Virus record (IMG/VR): IMGVR_UViG_3300015262_000001 | Location: 1 to 64,000 of that record | Strand: one strand, 5' to 3' | Origin: a virus | Length of the DNA stretch: 64,000 nt | Shown here: in pieces, positions 11,135 through 60,138 of the stretch | Layout: each line of letters opens with the position of its first letter | How positions within the stretch are numbered: position 1 is the first letter of the stretch | Notes under the pieces: generated by a model | The model's database searches: none | Seen by the model: only the letters and a program-made list of their open reading frames with translations | Told to the model about the DNA's origin: nothing | Program-made: the position numbers and the translations under genes

Positions 11135-11217
11135 GCACCTGTACTCCTCAAAGATATTTAATACTGGGACGCCATTGATATAGCGCTAAAAGCGGGCATA
11201 AAATGCAGGATAAAACC

Positions 11218-13089
11218 ATGACACAAACTGTCGCAGAAAACCTATCACCGATTATCGCTCGTGTCTGCAAACATGCCGTCTATACAGAGCATCGTTTTGA
11301 CAAGAGCAAAGACTTGCTGACCGCAAAGATTACTAACGTTCACGAGGATGGTAGCCGCTCCAATGTCTTCCAGTCCTACGAAAATTATAAACAGCCTTGG
11401 CATTTGGTTAAAGAACAGCACCGTAAGTTCCTCCAACCGAAGGACTACTTGGAAGAACGGTTCTGCCGTGAGTACCGTAGTACCCGTCGTGATATTCCGT
11501 TTGAAGTCCGTAAACAGCTATTTGGGGTAGCTGACCGTGGCGCAACGATCTATGACGTTAAATCTGGCAAGGGTATACAGTATGTGTTTGGTTTGGACCA
11601 AACTACTCCGGTTCACTTCAAACAACAGTTCTTTAAGAAGTATGCCGAGTATCAGGAGAAGGAACCTTATTCGGTAGCAGCGTTCGACGTTGAAGCAGAT
11701 ATGGAAGTCTTTGGTGAAGTCAAACCAATCATGATGGCTTCGGTTACCATGAAGGGTAAGGCGTACTGGGCCGGGCAGCGCAGCTGGTTCCAGAGTCGTC
11801 AAGACAAGATCGATCCCAAGATCCGTTTAACCGACTTCGCCATTTTGGCTGAGTTAAAGGCAGCAGAGAAGAAGTACCTACAGGAACACATTGATCGTCG
11901 CAAGTGTGAGATCGTGTATGAACTGTTTGATACTCCTGGTCAGATTGCCTTTGCTTGCATTCAGAAGTTCCATGAGTGGGCTCCTGACTGGGTACTGAGC
12001 TGGAACGCTGGTTATGACATGGAAGCCTGTGAACGCGCTCTCAGGACTGAAGGCTATAACCTCGCAGACGTCTACAGTGATCCATCGGTACCCAAAGAGT
12101 ATCGCAGCTATGAGTTGAACCTTGGTCGTACGCACAAGATCAAGGAGAACGGTGACAAAACTCCTCTGGAACCTCAAGAGAAGTTTCCAACGGTACGTAC
12201 TCCGGCTAAGTGGCAGTGGGCCGATGCCATGTCGGGTTATGCCATTAAACGATTCTCGTCGGGTAAGCTTGAGAGTTACTCACTGGAATCGATTGCGACT
12301 CGTGAAGGGGTCAAGGGTAAGCTCTATACCGAAGAAGGCATGAGCAAGGGTCCAGGGTCAGGACAGTGGCATCGATACATGCAGAAGGACCATCCTTATC
12401 TGTATTCGATGTACAACATTGCGGATAACTGGCCTATTGAAGAAATCAACGAGCAGACATTTGACTTCTCGCTGTCGATTCCGATGTTGTTGCGTTATTC
12501 GGAATACTTCAACTTCGTTTCGCAGCCACGTTTGATTTCGGATACGCTGTCCTTCCTTGCACGCGAACACGGTTACGTCTGGGGTAGTACACCTGCTAGA
12601 CGTGACAAGACCTTCAGCGACCGTCTGCCTACTCTGGATAACTGGATTGCTCTCCTCGATACTGAGAAGAACTCCGATATGGGTAGGGCAATGTTCATCG
12701 GGCTTGATGACGTTCTTAGCTCAGGTCGTGCTGGTGTTTCTGACCTTGACGTTGAGGGTGCATACCCACACGGTACATTGGCGGATAACGTCAGTAACAA
12801 AACGACTCAGATGGAAGTCTATGCCATTCAGGGTGCTGACCCAATGAAGTTCCGTGAGATTGCTGTCAACTATGCCAGCAGTACTCAGGCGAATGCCATG
12901 GGCTTGAGTCACGACCTGTTCCGTTTCCCACAAGCAGACAAACTGCAATCCGACTTTGAGAAAGGTCTGGAAGAACTGGGCTTCGGTGACATGTTGAAAC
13001 AGTTGCAAGAAAGCGCAGCCAAAGCAAAAGCAGAACGAGAAGCACGTCAAGCACAAGTACTACCAGAAGCATTGAAGAAAGCAGCGTAA
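11218..13089 (+). CDS. Split family B DNA polymerase, N-terminal half (exonuclease plus motif A)
   Basis: 623 residues from ATG 11218, chosen because AGGA lies about 8 bases upstream; ATG 11203 is in frame but has no such site. In numbering from 11203, Exo I is FDVEAD (D162, E164), Exo II NAGYD (N268, D272) and Exo III YNIAD (Y404, D408), a complete 3'-5' proofreading set. Palm motif A is DLDVEGAYP (D516, Y521). The protein then ends in an Ala/Lys/Glu-rich tail and lacks motif C. The missing half, with motifs B and C, is the separate gene at 44535-46619. It is a single-gene plus-strand unit ending in a strong terminator. Confidence 0.85.
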   Translation: MTQTVAENLSPIIARVCKHAVYTEHRFDKSKDLLTAKITNVHEDGSRSNVFQSYENYKQPWHLVKEQHRKFLQPKDYLEERFCREYRSTRRDIPFEVRKQLFGVADRGATIYDVKSGKGIQYVFGLDQTTPVHFKQQFFKKYAEYQEKEPYSVAAFDVEADMEVFGEVKPIMMASVTMKGKAYWAGQRSWFQSRQDKIDPKIRLTDFAILAELKAAEKKYLQEHIDRRKCEIVYELFDTPGQIAFACIQKFHEWAPDWVLSWNAGYDMEACERALRTEGYNLADVYSDPSVPKEYRSYELNLGRTHKIKENGDKTPLEPQEKFPTVRTPAKWQWADAMSGYAIKRFSSGKLESYSLESIATREGVKGKLYTEEGMSKGPGSGQWHRYMQKDHPYLYSMYNIADNWPIEEINEQTFDFSLSIPMLLRYSEYFNFVSQPRLISDTLSFLAREHGYVWGSTPARRDKTFSDRLPTLDNWIALLDTEKNSDMGRAMFIGLDDVLSSGRAGVSDLDVEGAYPHGTLADNVSNKTTQMEVYAIQGADPMKFREIAVNYASSTQANAMGLSHDLFRFPQADKLQSDFEKGLEELGFGDMLKQLQESAAKAKAEREARQAQVLPEALKKAA

Positions 13090-14297: not shown

Positions 14298-14936
14298 TTA
14301 GACGTTGGTCAGGTAGCGGAAGTACTGGGTAACGTTTTCTTTACCCTTGCGATTAAGGTCAGTGATAACACTGGCCAGATCGATCAACGAGTGCAGCTTG
14401 TACCGCGCCTCCCAGTTCTTGGCGACCATGGTCAGGAACGAGACGTACGTGTGGTACAGGCGGATGGTCTGAGCCGGATACTTCTTGTCCAGACCCACGG
14501 TGTAGCGGAAGGCCAGACCACCGGAGAATACTTCGGCGTTGGCGCGGATGATGGTCAGCAGGTCATCAGTGACAACAGCGAACTGTTCGAAGTCGAGACG
14601 GAAAGAGTTGCCGATCGTTTCGATGAAACTGATCTGTTCGTCCTGCTCTTCCTTCTTGTCCTTGAAGCGCTTACGCCCAGCCAGGAATTCAATGTGACGG
14701 TTGATGCGCGCTACCATGACGTCGGTAGTGGTATCACCTTTGGCATTGATCATCTTGGCGATGCCGATGACCATTGGTTCTGCCTGGAAGGTAGCCTCAG
14801 CCGGAGCAGCCGCTTCTTTGGCAGGTTGGGTGATGACAACAGGAGCAGGGGCTTTAGCAACAGGTGCAGCAACCTCCTTTGCGTCATCACCACTGAGATC
14901 TTCGCTCTCAGGTGGCGTGTAATCTTGTTTGCTCAT
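14298..14936 (-). CDS. Unknown virion-cluster protein with Pro/Ala-rich N-terminus
   Basis: 212 residues from ATG 14936 (MSKQDYTPPESEDLSG), which has GAAAGG upstream. The open frame extends to 15041 but without a better start. Residues 1-55 are an acidic Pro/Ala-rich linker; the rest is a compact helical domain. No motif is recognised. The 105-base gap to the preceding gene contains a short GC-rich inverted repeat near 15007-15029. Confidence 0.65.
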   Translation of the reverse strand: MSKQDYTPPESEDLSGDDAKEVAAPVAKAPAPVVITQPAKEAAAPAEATFQAEPMVIGIAKMINAKGDTTTDVMVARINRHIEFLAGRKRFKDKKEEQDEQISFIETIGNSFRLDFEQFAVVTDDLLTIIRANAEVFSGGLAFRYTVGLDKKYPAQTIRLYHTYVSFLTMVAKNWEARYKLHSLIDLASVITDLNRKGKENVTQYFRYLTNV

Positions 14937-15041: not shown

Positions 15042-15476
15042 TTAGAACATTTTCTTATTCAAACCCAGTTGACGCATTATTTCCATCAAGTCTTTGTTGG
15101 TATCTCCCACCTTCGGCGGTTTATTACCGTCGGCATCAGGTGGGTTATCAATCTTGTCTCGCTGACTGCGTCCTTCACCTACACCCTGGATCAGGTCGTC
15201 GATCAGAAACATAGGCATTTCCATGTAATCCCTTAACGGCATGATCTCATGGAGTTTGTAGAACCCGTACTTCTTAGCGACAGCCTTAATCGACCACTCA
15301 TGGGTAAACTCGTGCTCCACAGGAATGTAAGCCACTGAAGAGAAAGGATCCATATTAGCGGGGGTGTAGTAGTTCATGTTCAGATCATGCAACATGGACT
15401 CGTTAAACGACATGGCTTCTGGGGTAAGATCTTTGGTAGACTTCCCCAGTAGCTGGTTGTTAACCTGATTGAACAT
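15042..15476 (-). CDS. Unknown protein; probably also the C-terminal part of a -1 frameshift product
   Basis: 144 residues if started at ATG 15476 (MFNQVNNQLLGKSTKD). No convincing ribosome site precedes this ATG, nor the in-frame GTG at 15575 that lies inside the previous gene. The frame is open upstream through that overlap back to a run of seven T (minus strand) at 15587-15593 in the preceding gene, exactly in the -1 frame. The product may therefore be made mainly as an extension of the 571-residue protein. The C-terminus carries an acidic Pro/Lys linker (DKIDNPPDADGNKPPKVGD) and a short terminal helix. No family is recognised. Confidence 0.6.
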   Translation of the reverse strand: MFNQVNNQLLGKSTKDLTPEAMSFNESMLHDLNMNYYTPANMDPFSSVAYIPVEHEFTHEWSIKAVAKKYGFYKLHEIMPLRDYMEMPMFLIDDLIQGVGEGRSQRDKIDNPPDADGNKPPKVGDTNKDLMEIMRQLGLNKKMF

Positions 15477-15511
15477 AGGGCTGAAGACAATCCGACTGTC
15501 TACTCGGGGGA

Positions 15512-17227
15512 TTATTCCGAGAGGGCTTCGGACTTGACTTTGTTTTGGACGGCCGTCTGCTTGAGCATCGCCCACTGGGTGAGGGTAAAAAAACTCATCA
15601 CTGGGTCGATTGGCGTGTAGCCCAACTTCCGATCCAGCAGGTTTTCAGGGTCTTCCAGATCACCCATGTTCTTGCGGCACTTCGGACACACGTAGTTACG
15701 TACACCCATAAAGGTACGCGACATGTACGGTGTCTTGTTCAGGATGAACTTGACGAGGTTACGGTTGAGGTCTTCCTGGTCACGCAGAACGTCCAGAATA
15801 CCGCCGTTGAACTCGTTGGGTTCGATCTCGCTGCGCGCGAATACCGTTTCTTCCTCGTCGGTGTTTTCCGCTGGCAGATCAACTTGACGCTGTACCCAGT
15901 GGATGAACTCAGTAGAACCGAGGTTGTTGTGGACCATCGTGACCTGAGTCTGGTACTCAGCAGGGTCAACGAGTTTGGTACGCAGCTCGGCCAGCTCAGG
16001 GTTGATTTCACCGATGAAGAAGTCGAACGCATCAAACGCTTCAGCCAAAGTAGGTGGAGCACATTCGAGGTACATCGACTTCTCGTCGTTATACACACGG
16101 TTGCTTTCCAGACCATAAGTCGAAGCACGGCTCAGGGCACGAGTCTCTTCCATGGTGTACTTGGCATGGCCGTTGATCAGGTTGGCATAGATCGCCTCAT
16201 CGGCATCCGTGGTGATGTGATGACGCTGACGCAGCAACTTGGACGCCTGTACCAGCTTGAAGGCTTCCCAGTCACACTTACCGGAGAAGCACCGCAGGTT
16301 CAGGTTGATACCCTTGGTGTTGGTCGACTCGATCAACGCCGTGATGATGGTATCCATGTCGGTCAACAGGATAACGTTGGAGAGCTGGTTGAAGTCAGCC
16401 AGGTCCGTTACGCTCGAGTTGGTGATACGCTTCGCCATGAAGTTCCAGATCACACGCATCGAAGCGATACGCGCCAGCACGGCACTGTTGTTACCGATCT
16501 GCTGAACATAGCCGGTGATGGTACGACGGATGTCGTTCATCAGTGCACCCATCTCGGTATGGTTGGTACGCGAGAAAGCAAACGATGCAAACGAGTCACG
16601 GCACAGCACGTCGTACGACAGCTTGTCAGCACCAGAGCCTGTTTTACGGGCAGCACGACGACGCATGTTTTCACGCGCAGAGAAACCCTGGGTGGAAGCA
16701 GAAGGTTTCTTGCCGACGATGTCACCGGTGTTAACACCACCACGGTTGAAGACGTTGCTGATGTCCGGCTCGTTCAGGATCGAGGTACGAATCTTCAGTT
16801 CGTCCTGAATCTCCGACATGAACGCATACAGGTCGGCCGCGTGGGTCATTACCTGATCAGACGTCTTGCCTGGGAATTCCTTCTCGATGTACTGGAGCCA
16901 ATCGGATTCAGCTTTGCTGAAGACTGACTCCGGCAGACGTTCTTGCTCGAACATCGCCTTGGAACCGCTGAAGGTCAACCAGCGACCGATAACGCTCTGG
17001 GCCTTCAGGATGTCTTCTTTACGGTTACCCAGGAAGACAGTCATGAAACCACCGTCCATTTGCTCTTCTTTAGTGAGATCGCGAATGACCTCATCTTCAG
17101 GAGCGACGATCTGCTTCATCGTGGTGTTTTGTGCGGTGTGTACTTCACGGTGCGTAGGTGCTACCACAACCGGGGTGTCAACAGCAGGAGCTTGTTGCTC
17201 CTGTGGTTCTTGAGGTTCAGTACTCAT
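15512..17227 (-). CDS. Virion/assembly protein with Zn-knuckle and frameshift site
   Basis: 571 residues from ATG 17227 with AAGGAAG upstream. The N-terminus is a Pro/Glu/Gln-rich disordered linker (about 45 residues), followed by a long, largely helical body. Near the C-terminus a CPKC pair (YVCPKCRKNMGDLED) looks like half of a zinc site. The codons AGT TTT TTT ACC, 25 codons before the stop codon, form a T TTT TTT slippery heptamer, and a -1 shift there enters the next open frame and adds about 180 residues. Role unknown; large plus small frameshift pairs are common among tail assembly chaperones, but this protein is much larger than those. Confidence 0.75.
   Translation of the reverse strand: MSTEPQEPQEQQAPAVDTPVVVAPTHREVHTAQNTTMKQIVAPEDEVIRDLTKEEQMDGGFMTVFLGNRKEDILKAQSVIGRWLTFSGSKAMFEQERLPESVFSKAESDWLQYIEKEFPGKTSDQVMTHAADLYAFMSEIQDELKIRTSILNEPDISNVFNRGGVNTGDIVGKKPSASTQGFSARENMRRRAARKTGSGADKLSYDVLCRDSFASFAFSRTNHTEMGALMNDIRRTITGYVQQIGNNSAVLARIASMRVIWNFMAKRITNSSVTDLADFNQLSNVILLTDMDTIITALIESTNTKGINLNLRCFSGKCDWEAFKLVQASKLLRQRHHITTDADEAIYANLINGHAKYTMEETRALSRASTYGLESNRVYNDEKSMYLECAPPTLAEAFDAFDFFIGEINPELAELRTKLVDPAEYQTQVTMVHNNLGSTEFIHWVQRQVDLPAENTDEEETVFARSEIEPNEFNGGILDVLRDQEDLNRNLVKFILNKTPYMSRTFMGVRNYVCPKCRKNMGDLEDPENLLDRKLGYTPIDPVMSFFTLTQWAMLKQTAVQNKVKSEALSE
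15587..15593 (-). promoter_or_regulatory. Candidate -1 programmed frameshift site (T TTT TTT)
   Basis: Seven consecutive T on the minus strand lie in register with the X XXY YYZ rule in the 571-residue gene (Ser-Phe-Phe-Thr). After a -1 slip the frame reads TAC CCT CAC CCA GTG and stays open for roughly 180 codons to 15042. The downstream frame lacks a good start of its own, which supports frameshifting. No downstream pseudoknot was verified. Confidence 0.5.
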
Positions 17228-17250: not shown

Positions 17251-18027
17251 TCAGTTGACTTGTTTGGCGCCGATGTCTTCGTATGCATCAGCCAGTTCGC
17301 CTACGAGGGGCTTGTTGGTTGGCATCGGTTCAGCAGCAGCCGGTACAGTGCGGTACAGCACTTGCACACGGGTAATACGCTCGCCGTGCAGACGCATACC
17401 GAACTCGTAGTTGTTCTCGCCTTCATGCTTGTGCTCACGCACGTATTCGTTGATCAGTTCTTCACGAGGGCGCAGAACGATGGCCATCAGATCAGGGATG
17501 TTGAACTGCATGATCTCGGCCAGAGTATCGGTGTAGTGAACGAAGAGCGAGATGTACTCATCCACTTCTTGTTCTTTATTGATGAACTCGAACATTGCAT
17601 GAACGTCTTCAGCCACCGAAACGATCTGCTTGTCGAAGATATCAATCTGTGCCTGTTCTTCTTCGGTCAGGACGGTCTTCTTCATGTCGACCAGTTTGCT
17701 GGTAACTTCGACCACGCCGTGGATATTGCCCAGGATCGGGATCATATCGTTGATGCCTTTCAGCACCTCGATGTTGTTCAGTTTAGACTTCGCCCCATCG
17801 ATGTCTTTCTTCAGATCCAGAGCCGTTTGGATAACGCCCTTGGTGGCGATGTCGTAACGCAGTCTGGCTTCCGAAGCCTCGATACCTTCCGGCGATACGG
17901 CGATACGTGCCATCTCACGACGACCCAGATGGAACTGATCCTGGTTACGCTGGACGTTAGCCGCCTTACGTTTCTGTTTGGAGGCCACAGCCCGCTTGGC
18001 TTTCTTCTGAGCTTGTTTAGTAGACAT
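17251..18027 (-). CDS. Unknown coiled-coil protein with basic N-terminus
   Basis: 258 residues. The first 30 residues are strongly basic (MSTKQAQKKAKRAVASKQK), suggesting nucleic-acid or assembly contacts. The central region is helical with heptad-like Leu/Ile spacing, and the C-terminus is acidic. It is first in the minus-strand operon 18027-13175 and lies 41 bases from the divergent start at 18069. No family is recognised. Confidence 0.7.
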   Translation of the reverse strand: MSTKQAQKKAKRAVASKQKRKAANVQRNQDQFHLGRREMARIAVSPEGIEASEARLRYDIATKGVIQTALDLKKDIDGAKSKLNNIEVLKGINDMIPILGNIHGVVEVTSKLVDMKKTVLTEEEQAQIDIFDKQIVSVAEDVHAMFEFINKEQEVDEYISLFVHYTDTLAEIMQFNIPDLMAIVLRPREELINEYVREHKHEGENNYEFGMRLHGERITRVQVLYRTVPAAAEPMPTNKPLVGELADAYEDIGAKQVN

Positions 18028-21711: not shown

Positions 21712-24039
21712 TTAATTGAGCGAGCAGTTAGATTCAATAAGTTTGAAATCCTTTTCCTTATTGGCAAAGGCAATCCGTCGTTTCTGGAAACACTCCTGAT
21801 GTTTACCGATATCATTACAGAACGGGAAGATAAACATCGGGGTGATACGACCATCGAACTTACCACGTAGCTGACGCAAGCGACCGATCATCTGTTTGTT
21901 CCGTTGGGTCGAGAAGACCGTATGGAAACAGAACGTCCTGACAAGGCCAGGGATGTCCTTACCGGTACCGCAACTACCCGGTGTGGTGATAACGATCTCA
22001 TGCTCCAGATACTTCGTTGGTGTCTTCTTGTCCTTCGTTCCAAGGAAGGTACAGAAGTCCAGGTGTGGATACTTCGCCTGAAACATCGCCAACATCGTCT
22101 CACACATTTCAATACGCGAGAAGAAGAACAGAGCCTTAGTGCCTGGCTCTCTTATTGGCGGGATGTAATTGTAATCACCCGGCTTGCCGATACCGATGTA
22201 ATACTCCACAAACATCTTGTCGGCAATCTTGAAGTAGAACTCGGTCAAGACCGCACTACGCAGAATAGACGCTTCAAGCGCCATGTCATTGTAGCTGCCG
22301 AACTGTACCGTCTTCAGGAAGTACCTGCGCTGACACAAGTGATACATGTAAGCAACGATGTCGATGTAGTTCTCAGGTTCAGGTTCCTTAAGCCTGAGAC
22401 TGATCGGGAGCATCAGGTTGTACATCTTGTTCATGAACGGATCATCAGCTGTCAAGGTAGCCGACAGTGTGAGCAGTTTCTTGATGTTGCCATGGAACAA
22501 CGACAGACAGACTTCATGGAACGACTCATGCCCCTCATCCACAATACGGTAGCCCGGGTTGATCTGTTCAAAGATCTTGCTGAGCGGTACCGCTGTGGCG
22601 TCCTTACGGTTGTTACGCAAATACCCCGAGATCCTGGAGAACGGCACGATAACAATCTTGGGATTAAGCAGTCCCTTCTCGATGTTCTCCCCCAGTAATG
22701 GCAACGAGGCGTTTTCCCACACAACCACATCACCTGGTTTCATGATCAACGTTTTCTCGATGTCATTGATCCAGGTGGTAATGTAACGCGGTTGTACCGT
22801 AATGAGTACCCGCTTGCCAAGCTTGACGGCAGTGTAGAGACCCATGTAGGTGTTGTGGGTAACAATGTAGTCCTTGACCACGAAGCAGTGGCTCGGGTGT
22901 TCTACTGCGATGCAGGTGGTCTCGGTTGGATTGCTCTCAACGATTTGCACGATCTTCAAAGCCAGATCACGGTTCTCCGAGTTCCGTAGCTTATCCTGTT
23001 TCGTCTCATCGGTGAACAGAATCTCCGGAGTCCGATGGCGGAGGATAACCGAGTTCTTGAACTTCTTGAACTTGGCTTCCGCAATACCCCCAATACTTCG
23101 AACCAGGTCACGAACCATTTTGGCTGTAATACCGTATTCGGTTTGGAAGAGGATCGAACCGTCCGACTTTGGTTCACCGCCGTTATCCAATAACCCTCGC
23201 AGCAAAGCCATCCGTTGGGAATGAGAACCTTCCAGATACTTCTCACCCAGGATCCGATCGGTCTTACCAATCAGGTAGGGTTCAATGATATCCCCACGAT
23301 CAGGGTTGCGCTCACTGGCGGTTAGCGGGATGTACCAGGTCTTCTCACTGTCCACTAACTGCTGGGTGGTCAGTACCTGCCACTCGGTTTCACCTTCAGC
23401 CCGAACTTCCCATTGGTGGTCAGGGCACGCCACGATCGATCTACGATCCTCAAACATCAGATGGTAAGTCCGTGTCATCCCTTGAGGGAAAACGCCTGTA
23501 ACGTACGTGTGGGAGCCGTCAGGGGCCATCACAAGGTCATTAACCTTGATCTGTCCAATAGGGCGCCAACCGTGGATGGTTCTGACCGGCGTATCATTGG
23601 CTAGCGCTTTACCGCCACCCGTTGGAGCATTGTTGATCTTTACCGCGCCTTCAGCTAACTGATAGTCCAGCCACTCCTCCTGAGCGGGCAATGGAGTTGA
23701 CATCTCAGGCCGGAGTTGGAATTCGCAATCAGCGCCTTCTATCTCCGGTTCTGTTTCAATAGCAATCCGGGAAGCGTTGTAACCCCGGTATTGCGCAAAC
23801 TCAATGAACTCCTTCATTAAGCTTACGGGAATCCGATACTCAGTTTTGTCGTGATTAGACTGAGCAAACACGTGAGTCACTTTCCAGACCTGTTTATTGC
23901 TTCCAGGCACTGGAACCTTACCGACCTTATACAGGTGAGCGCGGCAGAAAGGAATAATAACCTTTACACAGAAATCGCCGTAATACCCAAAGATGCGCAG
24001 GTAGGTGTGACCCATGGATACAGTGGCGGAATGCCTCAT
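21712..24039 (-). CDS. SF2 DNA helicase (UvsW-like) interrupted by an intein
   Basis: 775 residues including a 252-residue intein. Walker A is APTGGGK (K144) continued by T397 after splicing; motif II DEGHE, motif III SATLT and motif VI MIGRLRQLRGKFDG place it in helicase superfamily 2, similar in layout to T4 UvsW. The N-terminal 110 residues form a separate substrate-binding region. Residue M1 (24039) is used; M9 is an alternative start. Spliced length is about 523 residues. It follows the RNAP beta'C gene, as phiKZ gp75 follows gp74. Likely roles are replication-fork remodelling, recombination or transcription-coupled unwinding. Confidence 0.85.
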   Translation of the reverse strand: MRHSATVSMGHTYLRIFGYYGDFCVKVIIPFCRAHLYKVGKVPVPGSNKQVWKVTHVFAQSNHDKTEYRIPVSLMKEFIEFAQYRGYNASRIAIETEPEIEGADCEFQLRPEMSTPLPAQEEWLDYQLAEGAVKINNAPTGGGKALANDTPVRTIHGWRPIGQIKVNDLVMAPDGSHTYVTGVFPQGMTRTYHLMFEDRRSIVACPDHQWEVRAEGETEWQVLTTQQLVDSEKTWYIPLTASERNPDRGDIIEPYLIGKTDRILGEKYLEGSHSQRMALLRGLLDNGGEPKSDGSILFQTEYGITAKMVRDLVRSIGGIAEAKFKKFKNSVILRHRTPEILFTDETKQDKLRNSENRDLALKIVQIVESNPTETTCIAVEHPSHCFVVKDYIVTHNTYMGLYTAVKLGKRVLITVQPRYITTWINDIEKTLIMKPGDVVVWENASLPLLGENIEKGLLNPKIVIVPFSRISGYLRNNRKDATAVPLSKIFEQINPGYRIVDEGHESFHEVCLSLFHGNIKKLLTLSATLTADDPFMNKMYNLMLPISLRLKEPEPENYIDIVAYMYHLCQRRYFLKTVQFGSYNDMALEASILRSAVLTEFYFKIADKMFVEYYIGIGKPGDYNYIPPIREPGTKALFFFSRIEMCETMLAMFQAKYPHLDFCTFLGTKDKKTPTKYLEHEIVITTPGSCGTGKDIPGLVRTFCFHTVFSTQRNKQMIGRLRQLRGKFDGRITPMFIFPFCNDIGKHQECFQKRRIAFANKEKDFKLIESNCSLN
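22852..23607 (-). other. Class 3-type intein in helicase Walker A
   Basis: Residues 145-396 of the helicase. The first residue is Ala, not Cys/Ser, so the classical first nucleophile is absent. Block B has CPDHQW (Trp210 at B:12), block F has TTCIAV (Cys376 at F:4) and block G is VTHN/T (Thr394 at G:5). That is the Trp-Cys-Thr triplet defining class 3 inteins, which use the block F Cys. A remnant LAGLIDADG-type region (QRMALLRGLLDNGG) lacks the usual acidic residue, so the homing nuclease is probably inactive. It splits GGGK from T. Confidence 0.85.
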
Positions 24040-40283: not shown

Positions 40284-42302
40284 TTACATGAACGGCATGT
40301 TCATGTTGTAAGCAACGCCCAGACCGTTACCGGAGGCGTTGTTCGAACCAGCACCCACGAGGGTAGCCAGACCGATGCCAGGCGTCGAAGCCAGGCTAGT
40401 GTTGCGCCAGCTGCCCAGGTTGTTGGCAACGTTCAGCTGACCGATGGTGTCCATGGCTTTCGACATGGCAGCCATGAAGTCAGGCGCCCAGATGTGAGGC
40501 TGAGCCCAGCCGTTGATGTGAACCTGACCGTCGAACAGCGACGAACTGGTTTCCACGCGCAGCTTCTGAGCACGTTGCTTGAACTCTTCGCCCTGGATGG
40601 TGCCGTACATGGTCGACAGCAGGCTTTCGGCTGCGAGCTGACCTTTCGGGCCCTTGATGTGCGAGATCATCATCTCGTCCAGTTCCTGGGTGTTGAACTT
40701 GCGACCGGCGTATTCGGCCAGGCCGTTTACAGCGATCATGCCAGTCGGGATCAGCACTGGCTTGGACGGCACCCAACCAACCTGAGCGGTAGCGTTGGCA
40801 CGGATGATTTCCGAGAACGCACCCTTGGTCATGCTGTCGATGAGCGAGATAACAACTTTGATTTCCGCCGCGTTCTGACCGACTTTGGCCAGCTGGAAGA
40901 AGAAGTTGTTGATCGACGCGTTCGGACCGGCCGGGATCAGGTTGATCTGGAAGGTCGCATGCGGGGAAACGTTCTGACGGATCCAGTTGTTGACCAGCTC
41001 GGTGTCCGACATCTTCTTCTCGTCGAGACGGATACGTTGCGGGTTCTGGAAGCCACCAGGGATCTGGCTTACCATTTGGTCAACACGAGTTTCCAGGTCA
41101 GCCAGGTTGCCGCGAGCACCAACGCTATGACGGCGCAGAGCTTCAGACCAGACGTACTGGTTGTTCGTCGCCATCAGCGCGTACAGGCCGGTGAAGAACG
41201 GGAACAGACCGCCGTTGTTGCAGAGTTGCTCGCCAGCTTGTACGGTACCAACGGTGATCACTGGACGCAGAGGTTTGAAGCCCTGTGGGTAAACACCCAT
41301 GCCCATGCTGTTGCCGAGGAACTGTTGCAGCGCGTTCATTTGCTCTTGCGAGCGGTGCGACATCATGAAACGCTGGTGATCTTCCCACGACACGCCGTTC
41401 AGGCTGACAGCCGCAGTAGCGCGGATGATCTCTTTCGAGTTGGCCTGGAAGTTGCCGGTGTTCTGGTTGCTGTTGTTGATCGTCGAAACGATCACTTCCA
41501 TGTTGTCCGGAGTCAACGTGCCGGCTTTGCTGGTGCGGAAGCTGATTGCGTTAACGCGAGCTTCTGCACAACCGTCTTTGCCGTAAGGTTCGTCGGTCTT
41601 GGCGAACGGAACCGGAACCTGGTAACCCTTGGCAACGATTTCGCGCACGGTCTTGACCATGATCGCTTCTTCCCACTCGGAGGCGATGTAGTTCGCCTGA
41701 CGGTGAGCGTAGTCTTTCGGATCGCCGGCTTCTGGGTGGTGCAGCATTTCCAGGTCGACAACGATCATGTTGATCACGCTGACGTTCTTCACGCCCTGAG
41801 CTTCGGCCACTTTGGTGTAGTGGGAAGTCAGCTTTTCCAGGAACACGTTGTTCGGGTACTGAGCCGGAGTCAGTGGTGCCGACATTTGTTGCATGATGTT
41901 GTTGGCGTTGACAGTGATGCGCTCAACACCGATGGACAGGGTGCGGTTGTAGAACAGCGCGGCCATGACGTACATGGTGCCGTCGAAGACAACGTACAGA
42001 CCGACGCCAGGCAGTTGTGCCGAGATGGACGGGGTCAGCATTTCAACGGTCGGAACGATTTTGCGTTGCAGTTCGTTGGTGGTGGACTTCTTGGCGTTCT
42101 CGTAGATCGCTTCGAGTTTCTCGATGGTTTCGGCAACCTCTTTGAGGTTACGGTTGTCGGACGTCATGGACGGCAGACGAAGCAGGCCAGCAAGACCATC
42201 CAGAGGAGCCATGGTGCCCGGAGCGCCTGGAGCCTGGTTAGTGGTGTTGGCTTGTTCTTTTTCGTTCCAGGAAGTGCTTTCGGAACCGGTATTCAGACTC
42301 AT
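40284..42302 (-). CDS. chmA: Chimallin, phage nucleus shell protein (phiKZ gp54-like)
   Basis: 672 residues with no enzyme motif. A disordered Asn/Thr/Gly/Pro-rich N-terminus (about 35 residues) and a flexible Gly/Asn C-terminal tail ending AYNMNMPFM flank a large mixed alpha/beta body, the layout expected for chimallin, whose terminal segments link neighbouring subunits in the shell. It lies directly upstream of the RNAP beta'N gene as gp54 does in phiKZ. It is monocistronic, with a strong early-promoter-like element 86-111 bases upstream and its own terminator, which fits the most abundant early protein. Codon choice looks more uniform than in its neighbours. Identification rests on context, size and layout, not on a remembered sequence match. 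Confidence 0.7.
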   Translation of the reverse strand: MSLNTGSESTSWNEKEQANTTNQAPGAPGTMAPLDGLAGLLRLPSMTSDNRNLKEVAETIEKLEAIYENAKKSTTNELQRKIVPTVEMLTPSISAQLPGVGLYVVFDGTMYVMAALFYNRTLSIGVERITVNANNIMQQMSAPLTPAQYPNNVFLEKLTSHYTKVAEAQGVKNVSVINMIVVDLEMLHHPEAGDPKDYAHRQANYIASEWEEAIMVKTVREIVAKGYQVPVPFAKTDEPYGKDGCAEARVNAISFRTSKAGTLTPDNMEVIVSTINNSNQNTGNFQANSKEIIRATAAVSLNGVSWEDHQRFMMSHRSQEQMNALQQFLGNSMGMGVYPQGFKPLRPVITVGTVQAGEQLCNNGGLFPFFTGLYALMATNNQYVWSEALRRHSVGARGNLADLETRVDQMVSQIPGGFQNPQRIRLDEKKMSDTELVNNWIRQNVSPHATFQINLIPAGPNASINNFFFQLAKVGQNAAEIKVVISLIDSMTKGAFSEIIRANATAQVGWVPSKPVLIPTGMIAVNGLAEYAGRKFNTQELDEMMISHIKGPKGQLAAESLLSTMYGTIQGEEFKQRAQKLRVETSSSLFDGQVHINGWAQPHIWAPDFMAAMSKAMDTIGQLNVANNLGSWRNTSLASTPGIGLATLVGAGSNNASGNGLGVAYNMNMPFM

Positions 42303-44534: not shown

Positions 44535-46619
44535 TCAATGCTCGTCAGATACCAACCGAGTCACTTTGCTGTTCATGATGTACAAGCCCAACGATTCAAG
44601 AATCGCGTAGATGGACTTATAGTTCTGTGCAATCAACGAGCGTGTATCTACAATCGGCAGGATCTCTTTCGGGATACCACCAATGCTTTCAATCATATCA
44701 ATTGGAACATAAATCGCTGTCAAAGAACCACGGGCTTCGATGTACTCCATCATCTTTTTCACAACATCACTTTCGCCGTAGGTCTCGGTAAACTGCTTGA
44801 CCTTGGTTTTGTTATCCAGTGTGACGTTGACCTTGTACGCGCGATACGGCAGCTCTGGTGCGTCGCCATAAGTCTCGGCAAACACCTGCTTCCACATCTC
44901 GTGGTAGAAGTAGATAGACGAGTCAGCGTTGCTGTAGGCGCTCTCTTCTTTGATACCGTTCTTGGTCAGCCAGCTCCAACCACCACTCTCCAGCTCTTCG
45001 AACAACAAGCGTTCCAGATCCGCTACGCCTTTCAGCATTGCAGGTGCATCCATCTGCTTGTTGTTGTAGAGCGCATCCAGAGCGTCTCGCATCAGTTTGT
45101 TCGTAAACTCCCTGACCTTGAGTGCAATCTTGATACCTCTGAGGTGCACACCCTTGAGTTCCAGTTTAGGGTCGTCGTAAAGAATACCTTCCAGCATTAA
45201 CTGCAACGCGTAGTAGTGCTTGGACATCGACGTAGTGAAGTACGCACTGAACAAGTACTCGTTCTTCATGTTCAGACGATGGCGGAACTTTCTGGCCACG
45301 TTCATGTTGACGCTGAGACGCGCATGCTGGTCGACGGCAATGCAACGAATGAAGTATGTCAATACACCGTTAAACGCCAGCTCGTCTTTCTTATCGGTAA
45401 TGTAGTCATCAATGATAGCGTCTACCGAATAGATCATCGAGTCAGTGTCGGAGGTTACGACGTTCTCGCGTACCAATTCCTTAACACTGAAAACACCAGA
45501 TGGCGGGATATCGGCTTTCAAGAAAGCTTCAATGAAGTCTCGCCATTTAACTTCCAGGCTGACGTGGTAAGAGTTGAGGTACGCCGATTGCTCAGCTGTT
45601 GCCTTCTTACCCAGCTTGGTGGTACAGAGTGTCTTGTAGTCATCGTTAGCGGGTTTAAGTGAGGTAACGTTCTCAAACGACGCAGGCATCTCAGGAACCA
45701 AACACCACTCATCGAAGAACCGTTTGACCAGTTCTTTGTTCGTGGTATACAGACCGCGAAGGTCCATGGTGCAGAGGATGATCGTCAGCTCCAGAGGTGA
45801 CAGCGCTTCCATGAACTCACGGATCGCACCGATCTGGGTCTTGTTGTTCCAGTAGTAAGCCGAGCAACGTTTCACCATGTCCATTACCTGGTCCACGGTG
45901 GCGTAACTCATCTGGTACTTATCAATAACCGCCTGTATCTTGTCTCGCTTCGCAAATGCCAGGGTACTAATAAACAGTTCCATGGACTTGTTGTAACTGA
46001 GTAGCAACCGGTTACCCGTAATCAGCCGCTCGTTCATCAGGTTGGCGACAGAGGTCAGGGAACGGCAGATCGAAGTCAGTGTAGTGTGGCCAGACTTGTT
46101 GTTCAGTGGAGTACCCGAAGAAGACATCGCACCAGACTGGGCGTTGTTAAAGATCTTCAGAGCCTTCTGGATTTCGTCAAACGCTTGTGCCGCTTCTTTA
46201 TCGCCAGCCGAGATGGCCCCTTTCATCTTGCCTTTATAAAGGCGACGGAACTCGATAAAGGTTTCAGTACCAATCGAGTTGATCGACTGTTCCTGGTTAG
46301 TGTGCGTGTACGCTACAAACGACGGTGACAAGTGCCAGTTGTTATCCTGCACCGTCTGGAAGAACTCACGAGCCGGCATGACATCAGGAACACGATCGCC
46401 GTACTTGTTCTTCTTGAATACTCTGAACTTGGCTTCCTTATAGCCGTTCTGATTGGGTACAAATACTTTCTCAACCAGTTCCAGTACTGTTTTGTAATCC
46501 CACTTGTAGATGGACGTCAGATAAGCCGCGGCCATGTAGTGGTAGTTCTGGAGCAAGTTGCGGTTGGGTACATATTCCTCTTCTAAGAAGGGAGATAGAT
46601 GTTGAGCCGCAGCAGTCAT
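44535..46619 (-). CDS. Split family B DNA polymerase, C-terminal half (motifs B and C)
   Basis: 694 residues from ATG 46619 (MTAAAQHLSPFLEEEY). The frame is open 97 codons further, but that part overlaps another gene and a terminator and has no matching start. KIFNNAQSGAMSSSGTP (from K155) corresponds to palm/fingers motif B (KxxxNSxYG), and TSDTDSMIYSVD (D391, D393) is motif C (YGDTDS) with the catalytic aspartates. The following region should contain the thumb. Motif A and the exonuclease are in the gene at 11218-13089, so the active enzyme must form from two polypeptides. Confidence 0.85.
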   Translation of the reverse strand: MTAAAQHLSPFLEEEYVPNRNLLQNYHYMAAAYLTSIYKWDYKTVLELVEKVFVPNQNGYKEAKFRVFKKNKYGDRVPDVMPAREFFQTVQDNNWHLSPSFVAYTHTNQEQSINSIGTETFIEFRRLYKGKMKGAISAGDKEAAQAFDEIQKALKIFNNAQSGAMSSSGTPLNNKSGHTTLTSICRSLTSVANLMNERLITGNRLLLSYNKSMELFISTLAFAKRDKIQAVIDKYQMSYATVDQVMDMVKRCSAYYWNNKTQIGAIREFMEALSPLELTIILCTMDLRGLYTTNKELVKRFFDEWCLVPEMPASFENVTSLKPANDDYKTLCTTKLGKKATAEQSAYLNSYHVSLEVKWRDFIEAFLKADIPPSGVFSVKELVRENVVTSDTDSMIYSVDAIIDDYITDKKDELAFNGVLTYFIRCIAVDQHARLSVNMNVARKFRHRLNMKNEYLFSAYFTTSMSKHYYALQLMLEGILYDDPKLELKGVHLRGIKIALKVREFTNKLMRDALDALYNNKQMDAPAMLKGVADLERLLFEELESGGWSWLTKNGIKEESAYSNADSSIYFYHEMWKQVFAETYGDAPELPYRAYKVNVTLDNKTKVKQFTETYGESDVVKKMMEYIEARGSLTAIYVPIDMIESIGGIPKEILPIVDTRSLIAQNYKSIYAILESLGLYIMNSKVTRLVSDEH

Positions 46620-46688
46620 CGGTACAATTCTCGCTGAATAAGCAAAATAGGTAATAAAAGAAAAATCAGATTGCAAAAAAGAAAATGG

Positions 46689-46725
46689 GTCACTACACTC
46701 CCCTATTGATGAGGAATGTAGTGAC
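46689..46725 (-). terminator. Intrinsic terminator upstream of polymerase C-half
   Basis: GTCACTACA and TGTAGTGAC form a 9-bp stem, with a partly paired inner loop, ten bases past the stop of gene 46735-47148. CATTTTCTTTTTT follows in the minus direction. Confidence 0.8.
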
Positions 46726-46734
46726 AGATCATTC

Positions 46735-47148
46735 TTACTTCTCAAACACCGTGAGGGTGTAAGCGGCGCCGATGCTCTGCATGAATGTAGCCAGCGGAGC
46801 ACGGAAGTCTTCACGCCAGTTGGTAACAACCATGTTGGCGTTACGGCCGTCGATAAGCTGAAAGGTCGAATCGTTGATCCATGGGACCCCGATAACCTCC
46901 ATCTTGTCATTACGACCGATTAGCACCAGGTAACCGTAGGCGTTTGGATCGTCGACGTTACCTACCTTGTCCTTGAAGTACGCGAACAGGTTTTTGTGCT
47001 TGATGGCCAACTGTGGATCAATCAATCGAGCGGTTGCGTACTGGACGATACCGTCAACCTTGACATCAACACGGTCTCCCCCATTGATGCCGTTCTTTAC
47101 CAGCTGAAATGAAACAATGTCACCACGTGAAGGATTCGGGGTTGCCAT
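46735..47148 (-). CDS. Unknown small beta-rich protein
   Basis: 137 residues from ATG 47148 with AAGGAGA upstream. The N-terminus (SRGDIVSFQLVKNGINGGDRVDV) looks like an SH3-like beta barrel, and the rest is mixed. No catalytic motif. It overlaps the upstream gene by 29 bases and is last of the small-gene operon 49339-46735. Confidence 0.7.
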   Translation of the reverse strand: MATPNPSRGDIVSFQLVKNGINGGDRVDVKVDGIVQYATARLIDPQLAIKHKNLFAYFKDKVGNVDDPNAYGYLVLIGRNDKMEVIGVPWINDSTFQLIDGRNANMVVTNWREDFRAPLATFMQSIGAAYTLTVFEK

Positions 47149-56816: not shown

Positions 56817-59800
56817 TTATGCGGCACGCTTACGTTCCCGCAGCATGCGTTTAGCCCGTTCGAGTTTAGCTTCTTCGATCAGACTGTCTACGGTGAGGAG
56901 TTTAGCCGTTTCAACTGGGAGCAATCTGCTGAGCTTGTTGATCTCAGCTTCCAGCCTCATGGCGAGGATATTGTCGTTGGTGTTCAACAACTCTTCCGTC
57001 AACCCATTCACGCGTTTCTTGATGTTGTCCAAGAACGATACAACACTTGGATCCACTTCAGGAGCGTTCTTGTGTTTACCGGCATCCAGTAGGTTACGAG
57101 TTTCCGTTAACGCAATCCCGGTAGGAATCCCGTACATCGGCTTGTTCATACCCAGCTTGATAAACCAGTACGTTAACAACCAGGCAATAACCAAGTCATC
57201 GTGCTGTTTGCTATCGTGGTCGATTCGATCGCCCCGAGTCTTGAGGTTGATCAGCTCATCTGCAAGCCTATCGTAGTGCAGACCATACCCGGTGTTACCC
57301 ACAGCCTCCTGAATCAAGCCGTACAGAACCTGACGAGACGTTTGTGTCGTCACGAACCCGAAGTACTGCTTGTATTTCAGGTAGAAGCTTTTACTGCGAT
57401 GGGCAAACTTGGTATGCTGTACCGCCTCGTACTCCTTCGCATGGTTAACAGGATCCTGGAAGACCGTGTTGTAGATGCGAGTGAATGGATCCATCCCTTT
57501 AGCTGGTAGCATGACCAACAGGTTATCGATCATGTGGTGTGCGTAGTTACGTTCAATCACCAACAGACTGTTCTCGAAGGTAGACAACATGTCTACGATA
57601 ATGCCCGTCACGTCGTCCAGGAACGCCAACTGATAACGACCCACCCCAATCACCTTACCGGTTCGCATGCTGCGGATAATCAGCGTACAGGCATCCTTGT
57701 TGATAGCCGACGAGGTATCCACCCCAATGAGGAAGAAGTCATTGTAACTCTTCTTCGCCATCTCCAGCAGTTCTTGCTGCGTGACAAAGAAGTCTATAAA
57801 CAGACCACTGTCACGATACTCCTTACTCCAAACCTTATCCCGCTTAACGTTGTTGATCGCTTCACGAGTGATGTCATCGAACACACGGTTCTCACCGTCT
57901 TCAACCCACATCAGAAGCAAGTCGATTTTGGCTTTAGCCAAACTGAGGTTCAAGCTGTCGATGGTTTCCTGTACCCAGGACTTGTCTTTACCCAGCTGCA
58001 AGAAGTTATACACCAGAGCCACAGATGGAGAAGTGGTCTTCTTCGGAGATGCTTTCAACAAGCGCATCTTCAGGTGACTTTCACTGTACGAGTCAAAGAA
58101 CTTCTCACGCCACTCAGTCGACGTCATCAGTTTCTCAAACATGAACGCGCCACTTGGGTGCAGGGTCGTGTTTGGTGTCGTGATGTAACTGATCCCGTAA
58201 GGAATACCACTATCGCGACAAATCTCCATCTCTGTCAAAGCAGAAGGAGAGCATCCGTTGATGATCGCCTCGATCCAGTTGATGTAACCAGGCTCGTCGT
58301 AGTTCGTGGTACCTACCGTGAGACCCCGTCCAAGGTCACCTGCGGCGTCTTCACCCATCTGGGGTACCGAGATGGTCAGGGTGTTAACGTGCTCCTCCCC
58401 AAACGCTTTATACGTCAGGTAGTTACCCGCATCCTTGTCCTTCCAGGTGGGGTTAACCAGGTACTTCGGCAGACAGGTTCTGATTTTCTTGATGGCATCG
58501 ATGAACTGAGCCCGGTTATCTGACTTCAACGTTACCAGGTGAGACTTGTAGCCTCGCCCCATGATGTACGTCAGCCAGAAAGCAATAACCTGTACCGATA
58601 CTGTGTTGTGAGTTACCAGGAAGTCATCGGTAACGTAGAGGTGTTCCTCGTTATCGACCTCGATACAGGTACAAGGGGCTTCACCGTGATACTCAATGCG
58701 TTCCACAAACAAACGGTTATCGAAAACGAACTCGTCCTCAACATGCTTGTATTTAAACAACGCCATCGAATGCGGCAAGGTTACAGTGATCTTGCTACCA
58801 GCCTTGGAAGCCGTACCGCCCAAACTCCGCGCCAGGTATTGAACATGACCGCCTACGAGTCTGCTAGTGGTGCTGTAGACCACACCCTCCTCACCGACTA
58901 TCCCTTGGTCCAGAAACGCTTGCAGTACAGCCAGCCGATCTTCCAGAGCCCCTTCCAGGTAGTTAGACGGCAGACCCAGGTCTGGATCGAAGGTAATCTT
59001 GACATTCTCGTCAGTCGAGTGGATCTCACGACGATTACCCTTCTTCACCAGCTCTAAACTTTCAGGCAGGTTATTCTCAATCCAGGCGTCAGCCGCTTCG
59101 GAGACCTTCTTGATCAGGATGAAGCCACCAATACGCTGACCGCCAATTAGTGTCCCCATCACATAAGGGTCAATCGCCAAGTTCTTGGCAACGCCCTTCT
59201 CCGCTTCAATCAGCGGGAACTCAAGCTTTACACCATCCTTGAGTTTGGTGATCATCTCGGCGGTGGTGTAGTCGTCCCAGATTGGATCATCGTTAACTAC
59301 ACGACTGTGGTCTGCTAAAGTCCAGAGGTGTTCAGGTCCAGCAGTCACATGACGACCATCACTGGCGTAAACACGGTACAAGCGTTTGATACCCTGAGCG
59401 TGGATACCGATGACTGTCGATGGGTTACCATAACGGTCAATGACTTGATCACCAGCTTGCAGGTCGCCAATTCGTACCCAGGTCCCATCTGCTTTACGCA
59501 CCTTGTCATTATCGTCCTGGTACTTGCCCTGCTGACGAGGCATGATCATGTACTGGGTGATGTGGTTCAGGTAGTTCCAGATGAAACTGACGTTACCGCG
59601 ATTCGCCAAGAACTGGCGGTCAGCACGCAGTTTACAAACCTCACGAAGGAAGTACCAGAAGTTGGTCTCCGATTCGTGCATGATCATGACCTTCTGTTCG
59701 TTGGTCAGATTCTCGTCGTAAGGGTCTACACCTACCAAGGCCGGATTGTTCAGTTGCAGTAGGAAGTAGTAGTTCTTGATACCCTGCTGCCGGAAGATCT

Positions 59801-60083
59801 CAGCAGTTCGCAGAAAGCTGGTATTACGGGTGGTCAGATCCGGGGCTGCCTTGTAACGAGCAAAGTCCTTGAGGAATCTAACCGTTTTGATCTTGCTCAG
59901 GCTGTCTTCATTGAAGTGAGCCATGACCAGTTCGTCTTCAGTACGCTTAGCCCAGTCCACGCGGTTCTTGCGATCGTCGATCAATTCAGGTGGTAGGTTT
60001 TGTGCACCCAGATAAGTGATCAGTTCTTTTGCAAACTTCAGTTGGCCTTCGTCTACAGTACTTTCTGATTCAATCGTGTCCAT
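56817..60083 (-). CDS. terL: Terminase large subunit interrupted by an intein
   Basis: 1088 residues from ATG 60083 (GGGAA upstream; the frame continues to a GTG at 60101), of which 306 are intein. Numbered from 60101, Walker A is MPRQQGK (K193) plus T500 after splicing, and TTNYDEPGYI is the Walker B/DE segment of the packaging ATPase. The RuvC-like nuclease domain has FFLIGVDTSS, LLVIERNY and HDDLVIAWLL, supplying the acidic metal ligands. Spliced length is about 782 residues. TerL docks at the portal, cuts concatemers and pumps DNA into the head. A terminator separates it from the gene upstream. Confidence 0.9.
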   Translation of the reverse strand: MDTIESESTVDEGQLKFAKELITYLGAQNLPPELIDDRKNRVDWAKRTEDELVMAHFNEDSLSKIKTVRFLKDFARYKAAPDLTTRNTSFLRTAEIFRQQGIKNYYFLLQLNNPALVGVDPYDENLTNEQKVMIMHESETNFWYFLREVCKLRADRQFLANRGNVSFIWNYLNHITQYMIMPRQQGKYQDDNDKVRKADGTWVRIGDLQAGDQVIDRYGNPSTVIGIHAQGIKRLYRVYASDGRHVTAGPEHLWTLADHSRVVNDDPIWDDYTTAEMITKLKDGVKLEFPLIEAEKGVAKNLAIDPYVMGTLIGGQRIGGFILIKKVSEAADAWIENNLPESLELVKKGNRREIHSTDENVKITFDPDLGLPSNYLEGALEDRLAVLQAFLDQGIVGEEGVVYSTTSRLVGGHVQYLARSLGGTASKAGSKITVTLPHSMALFKYKHVEDEFVFDNRLFVERIEYHGEAPCTCIEVDNEEHLYVTDDFLVTHNTVSVQVIAFWLTYIMGRGYKSHLVTLKSDNRAQFIDAIKKIRTCLPKYLVNPTWKDKDAGNYLTYKAFGEEHVNTLTISVPQMGEDAAGDLGRGLTVGTTNYDEPGYINWIEAIINGCSPSALTEMEICRDSGIPYGISYITTPNTTLHPSGAFMFEKLMTSTEWREKFFDSYSESHLKMRLLKASPKKTTSPSVALVYNFLQLGKDKSWVQETIDSLNLSLAKAKIDLLLMWVEDGENRVFDDITREAINNVKRDKVWSKEYRDSGLFIDFFVTQQELLEMAKKSYNDFFLIGVDTSSAINKDACTLIIRSMRTGKVIGVGRYQLAFLDDVTGIIVDMLSTFENSLLVIERNYAHHMIDNLLVMLPAKGMDPFTRIYNTVFQDPVNHAKEYEAVQHTKFAHRSKSFYLKYKQYFGFVTTQTSRQVLYGLIQEAVGNTGYGLHYDRLADELINLKTRGDRIDHDSKQHDDLVIAWLLTYWFIKLGMNKPMYGIPTGIALTETRNLLDAGKHKNAPEVDPSVVSFLDNIKKRVNGLTEELLNTNDNILAMRLEAEINKLSRLLPVETAKLLTVDSLIEEAKLERAKRMLRERKRAA
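58605..59522 (-). other. Class 3-type intein in terminase Walker A
   Basis: Residues 194-499 (numbering from 60101). It begins with Tyr instead of Cys/Ser (GK/YQDDNDKVRKADGTW) and ends VTHN/T. Block B GPEHLW gives Trp260 at B:12, block F CTCIEV gives Cys479 at F:4, block G gives Thr497 at G:5: the Trp-Cys-Thr triplet of class 3 inteins. A degraded LAGLIDADG endonuclease is visible (DPYVMGTLIGGQ and LAVLQAFLDQG), with the catalytic acidic residues replaced. Splicing would restore GKT. Confidence 0.88.
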
Positions 60084-60138
60084 GATAGGTTCCCATTGCA
60101 CATATCAAAAAAATAAAGATAACTCGTTGAAAATAAAG

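Follow-up and report, generated by a model that had tools for sequence, protein, structure and literature searches.

Two reading frames, ORF1 and ORF2, overlap on the minus strand of the window, a stretch of 64,000 nucleotides that forms part of a virus record of 228,597 bases (Table 1). Toward its 3′ end ORF1 reads ...GTG ATG AGT TTT TTT ACC CTC..., a run that holds a candidate site for -1 ribosomal frameshifting. The initial annotation had described a heptamer here in the correct register, with the -1 frame open to 15042, and these points hold: 24 sense codons separate the heptamer from the ORF1 stop, and the -1 frame has no stop from 15644 until its own at 15044..15042. A shift at the heptamer would join 547 residues of ORF1 to 181 residues read in the -1 frame, with FFYPHPV at the junction, giving a predicted fusion of 728 aa where about 730 had been proposed. 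The downstream gene had also been said to lack a believable ribosome site, and indeed no ORF2 start codon with a ribosome site is present in the window.

Taken alone, an open -1 overlap is weaker evidence and not rare, being found at 8 of 199 long ORFs in the genome. When every ORF of 100 aa or more in the genome is screened for a shifty heptamer of any type together with a long -1 extension, five besides ORF1 qualify, none of them longer than 162 aa (range 109-162 aa).

The window encodes a nuclear shell protein (phrog_4795, E 1.4e-115; 40284-42302, minus strand) as well as multi-subunit RNA polymerase genes, and on this gene content its source is a nucleus-forming, phiKZ-like jumbo phage. 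ORF1 matches phrog_4585 with an E value of 5.5e-96, and both sequence homology and gene order place it in the gp77 family; the depositors of 201phi2-1 themselves remark on the kinship of gp136 with the gp77/gp47 family. In the annotated relatives except SaP7, whose gene order deviates, the genes follow in the order RNA polymerase beta', virion structural protein, gene A, ORF1, ORF2. Around ORF1 lie genes for the virion RNA polymerase and the head, together with ORF3 and a DNA polymerase. No tape-measure gene was identified beside ORF1 among the neighbours inspected in the window and in the annotated relatives.

Two separate genes in the window have DNA polymerase family matches, at 11203-13089 (plus strand, phrog_3011) and 44535-46910 (minus strand, phrog_2927). 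In addition, a mixture of PHROGs (19299, 36964, 15, 510 and 50) is matched by a block present both in a helicase (21712-24039) and in the large terminase subunit (56817-60101), each on the minus strand. The block has the look of an intein or homing module that was inserted; the one in the terminase has only a weak NCBIfam intein-type match.

Table 1. Positions of the reading frames and sites discussed, numbered along the window
Feature	Position	Strand	Remarks
Gene A, 258 aa, phrog_28183	17251..18027	minus	Upstream neighbour; precedes ORF1 in relatives (phiKZ gp78 position)
ORF1, short form, 571 aa	15512..17227	minus	Homologue of phiKZ gp77 (PHIKZ077), EL gp47 and 201phi2-1 gp136; phrog_4585
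Cysteine pair 1, codons C313 and C318 (CFSGKC)	16274..16291	minus	Invariant in alignments A1 and A3; equivalent pair invariant in phiKZ-type members
Cysteine pair 2, codons C514-P-K-C517	15677..15688	minus	28 codons before the slip site; invariant in 20 diverse members
Slippery heptamer T TTT TTT	15587..15593	minus	ORF1 frame (AGT TTT TTT), X XXY YYZ register
Dual-coding overlap	15512..15586	minus	Last 24 ORF1 codons and stop, predicted to be read in the -1 frame as well
ORF1 stop codon TAA	15512..15514	minus	Would be bypassed by the shift
ORF2, predicted 181-aa C-terminal extension in the -1 frame	15042..15587	minus	No start of its own; phrog_19747/phrog_24181
ORF3, 212 aa, phrog_14374	14298..14936	minus	Next gene downstream, a neighbour with its own start

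Conservation of the slip site and coding constraint

Sixty related loci were assembled from 14 phage records, 32 IMG/VR loci and 14 further phage records, with ORF1 identities ranging from 100% down to about 20%. Named members include phiKZ (gp77), EL (gp47), 201phi2-1, OBP, the SPN3US species and Ea35-70. The IMG/VR loci were retrieved by a peptide pattern containing FF, which fixes the residues and leaves the codons free, and the phage records were retrieved by tblastn with no FF condition. At all 60 loci ORF2 lies in the -1 frame and is continuous with ORF1. Because several loci represent the same phage taken from two collections, the counts that follow are based on 41 non-redundant sequences.

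The heptamer T TTT TTT, T TTT TTC or T TTT TTA was present in 40 of the 41 sequences, the last variant once only, so that an X XXY YYZ heptamer stands in the zero frame of every relative with the one exception of Noxifer, where a one-base change gives G TTT TTC. The residue preceding Phe-Phe is of eight types (S, N, A, T, Y, V, G and L), and in every sequence but that of Noxifer the third base of its codon is T, as in the GTT TTT TTC of SaP7; the naive log10 P of this pattern is about -42, a figure that ignores shared ancestry and is indicative only. In Kc263 the second Phe codon has become Leu (TTA), giving Phe-Leu in the protein, and the heptamer is still canonical. The distance from the slip site to the ORF1 stop is 37 codons in Klebsiella phage FBKp24, compared with 8-27 in the others. 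In Noxifer, the -1 frame is open across 178 bases upstream of the ORF1 stop.

Conservation of the T run itself bears on whether the -1 product might arise by transcriptional rather than ribosomal slippage. Runs of seven T can slip during transcription, and this phage transcribes with its own multi-subunit RNA polymerases. However, it is the ribosomal slip pattern that is kept in all relatives and not the length of the run, which is seven, six or five: after six T comes a C in many relatives and an A in one, and the Noxifer run is five T long. Since the run shrinks to six or five, transcriptional slippage was set aside as very unlikely.

The overlap was then compared with the rest of the gene for constraint on synonymous sites. 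In four clusters of relatives, the ratio of observed to expected synonymous differences in the overlap was 0.22, 0.46, 0.29 and 0.50, and in each cluster none of about 500 other windows of equal length was as low; the suppression is limited to the overlap. Beyond the ORF1 stop, comparison of ORF2 with close relatives gives dN/dS values of 0.13-0.26, much like those of ORF1, which is the pattern of a sequence under constraint at the protein level. The -1 frame is thus open and, by these measures, coding past the zero-frame stop, with dual-coding constraint before it. Chance is excluded as the origin of this arrangement because it is conserved in every relative and because synonymous suppression is confined to the overlap.

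An independent ORF2, with its own or a coupled start and an incidental open overlap, would be the reading closest to the public records, all of which annotate two genes where examined, and in the window an ATG does stand 35 bases past the ORF1 stop. This ATG has no ribosome site and is not kept in relatives. More generally, the -1 frame has no conserved start codon, and most of those present come without a ribosome site. The first possible start comes at codon 86 of 165 in phiKZ, codon 69 in Ea35-70 and codon 67 in a further relative (L026), that is, 67-86 codons into a conserved frame, so that no route other than extension of ORF1 could supply the conserved N-terminal part of ORF2. In line with this, tblastn matches of ORF2 start inside the ORF1 overlap, where the dual-coding constraint also argues against an incidental origin. 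An independent start was rejected on these grounds and is, if anything, still less probable than transcriptional slippage. A gene pair with no slip site and a good start of its own, which the initial annotation had named as evidence against frameshifting, was looked for among the relatives; all of them retain a slip site, and a conserved start is found in none.

Downstream stimulatory RNA structures are common at -1 frameshift sites but are not required. No conserved downstream stem was found here (mean folding z-score of -0.12 over 41 sequences, for pseudoknot-free structures). Collectively, the relatives and the constraint on the overlap give strong support to the programmed -1 frameshift that had been suggested from the single sequence. 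We consider it very likely that the frameshift is real, ancient and unannotated. No related sequences were found in a search of cellular genomes.

Predicted proteins and structural matches

The initial annotation had described a Zn-knuckle in ORF1. The conserved pair C514/C517 accounts for this, but it is only half of what is present, as C313 and C318 form a second pair (Table 1). The two invariant pairs suggest one or two zinc sites in ORF1.

ORF1 and ORF2 were folded as separate models. The AlphaFold2 model of ORF1 has a pLDDT of 84.8 and a pTM of 0.85. The ORF2 model is poor (pLDDT 62), and a structure search with it returned no match. Sequence and fold searches of the PDB gave no match for either ORF, and Pfam and NCBIfam gave nothing convincing for either. 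When the ORF1 model was compared with predicted viral structures using Foldseek, its own gp77 family and a few unnamed proteins ranked first. Next came a T4-like baseplate hub assembly protein (prob 1.00, E 0.007, TM 0.46 on target) and the hub assembly chaperone of phage ACP17 (prob 0.98, E 0.03, TM 0.50 on target), and then the hub subunit of Bacillus phage SP-15 (prob 0.54). A chaperone resembling T4 gp26/gp51 had been expected from the order of motifs before the Foldseek result was seen. The structural matches to these modelled folds are modest, and their E-values are not sufficient alone.

T4 gp26 and gp51 both belong to PF12322 (T4_baseplate). This profile found no match at E <= 10 in the present genome or in 17 other phiKZ-like records, while T4 and three relatives were positive. 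Profile-profile comparison (hhalign) with gp26/gp51 was weak, reaching at most 52% probability, mostly through the CPxC motif, and hhalign of the ORF1 halves against each other and against the gp26/gp51 halves gave no significant sign of a two-unit architecture. Because the E-values are modest and PF12322 has no match, what we propose is a likeness of working and not membership of the gp26/gp51 family.

Short and long forms as candidate assembly chaperones

The gene encoding a tail assembly chaperone (TAC) of the gpG/gpGT type lies directly upstream of the tape-measure gene. In lambda, short and long tail assembly chaperones, gpG and gpGT, are made from one gene by a -1 shift (PMC5009743), and an invariant poly-T motif, GTTTTT, has been reported for the TAC of the Vandenendeviridae (PMC12846349). 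The present locus resembles both in having two ORFs joined by a conserved -1 shift toward the 3′ end of the first, with a short and a long product whose common N-terminal part is predicted from the open frames and their conservation. As in the TACs made by -1 frameshifting, the downstream ORF would not be a separate gene, and the Noxifer site, G TTT TTC, is like the Vandenendeviridae motif. Unlike gpG/gpGT-type TACs, the phiKZ-like gene is not beside an identified tape-measure gene, and its ORF1 carries invariant cysteine pairs and has no sequence similarity to them that could be found. ORF1 is also about 500-630 aa, far above the usual size, as had been remarked of this pair at the outset. 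The recoding and the logic of short and long forms are already known; novelty lies in how large the protein is, in its cysteine pairs, in where the gene lies and in which phage group has it.

T4 gp26 and gp51 are listed as chaperones of baseplate hub assembly, and the completed particle does not contain gp51 (PMC3004832). Here the likeness lies in the predicted fold, in two cysteine sites, and in a short form that ends soon past CPxC next to a long form with a C-terminal tail: gp26 ends shortly past its CPxC motif, and gp51 has an extra tail of about 45 residues. In contrast to the phiKZ-like pair, T4 uses two paralogous genes and no frameshift, its proteins are much smaller (208/249 aa versus 571/728 here), and the phiKZ-like proteins have no PF12322 match. 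The suggestion of a tail chaperone in the initial annotation can thus be kept in part; the fold resembles T4-like hub assembly chaperones, but the PF12322 match and an adjoining identified tape-measure gene are both missing.

We propose that a programmed -1 ribosomal frameshift at T TTT TTT yields two proteins from this gene pair. Normal termination would give the short form of 571 aa, and the shift would give a presumably rarer long form of 728 aa, whose C-terminal extension could not be made whole by another route. Together they would be a giant and probably zinc-binding counterpart of T4 gp26/gp51, working like lambda gpG/gpGT as a chaperone that helps to assemble the baseplate hub and tail but stays out of the virion. 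The common ORF1 part may bind and protect the hub or tape-measure protein, the extension may recruit the next component, and the shift would set the ratio of short to long form. From the structural models and the analogy with known systems, a hub or tail-assembly role for the pair is somewhat favoured, and the explanation as a whole, frameshift and chaperone role together, is one that we regard as fairly likely.

Alternatively, the frameshift may be real and the two proteins may serve another step, for instance packaging of the head or of RNA polymerase, or a step in the phage nucleus; the similarity to hub chaperones would then be a general likeness of fold. Genes for virion RNA polymerase beta' and for head structural proteins adjoin ORF1 in nearly all relatives, which would fit such a role, as would the lack of a PF12322 match and the weak profile comparison. 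It is at odds with the rank of T4-like hub-assembly proteins directly after the family's own members in Foldseek, and with a short/long pair made by a conserved shift near the end of ORF1, which is the usual pattern of tail assembly chaperones. Moreover, the annotation notes of the two records, the only source here, label the neighbouring gp79/gp80 of phiKZ and gp138/gp139 of 201phi2-1 as structural or as seen by mass spectrometry, and give gp77 and gp136 no label as virion proteins. We hold a role in another step to be rather unlikely.

If the chaperone reading is true, the pair is a candidate assembly chaperone for these phages, not reported in the literature searched, with a ratio-setting element, and it suggests a link between frameshifted chaperones and the T4 gp26/gp51 pair. 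A broader and tentative proposal, which we place somewhat below an even chance, is that phiKZ-like nucleus-forming phages carry a giant zinc-binding hub chaperone in short and long forms made by a frameshift as old as the group, and that T4 genes 26 and 51 are a second solution, by duplication, within one deep superfamily.

The gene pair in public records

phiKZ gp77, EL gp47 and 201phi2-1 gp136 are direct homologues with the same heptamer and ORF2 in the -1 frame. They are annotated mostly as hypothetical, and in some cases as 'ZipA-like' or 'baseplate'; public annotation of the pair gives neither the frameshift nor the true extent of ORF2. The annotations and literature searched held no report of the frameshift in phiKZ-like phages; subscription journals lay mostly outside this search, and a prior report is possible. 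The frameshift, if true, corrects the gene model across the phiKZ-like phages, phiKZ included. The phiKZ record lists only the last 80 aa of ORF2, as PHIKZ076.4, which leaves half of ORF2 unannotated and would make the fusion, of a predicted 687 residues in phiKZ, invisible to proteomics searches. In the record of Pseudomonas phage vB_PQ1, ORF1 itself is annotated as several short ORFs, as if by sequencing frame errors.
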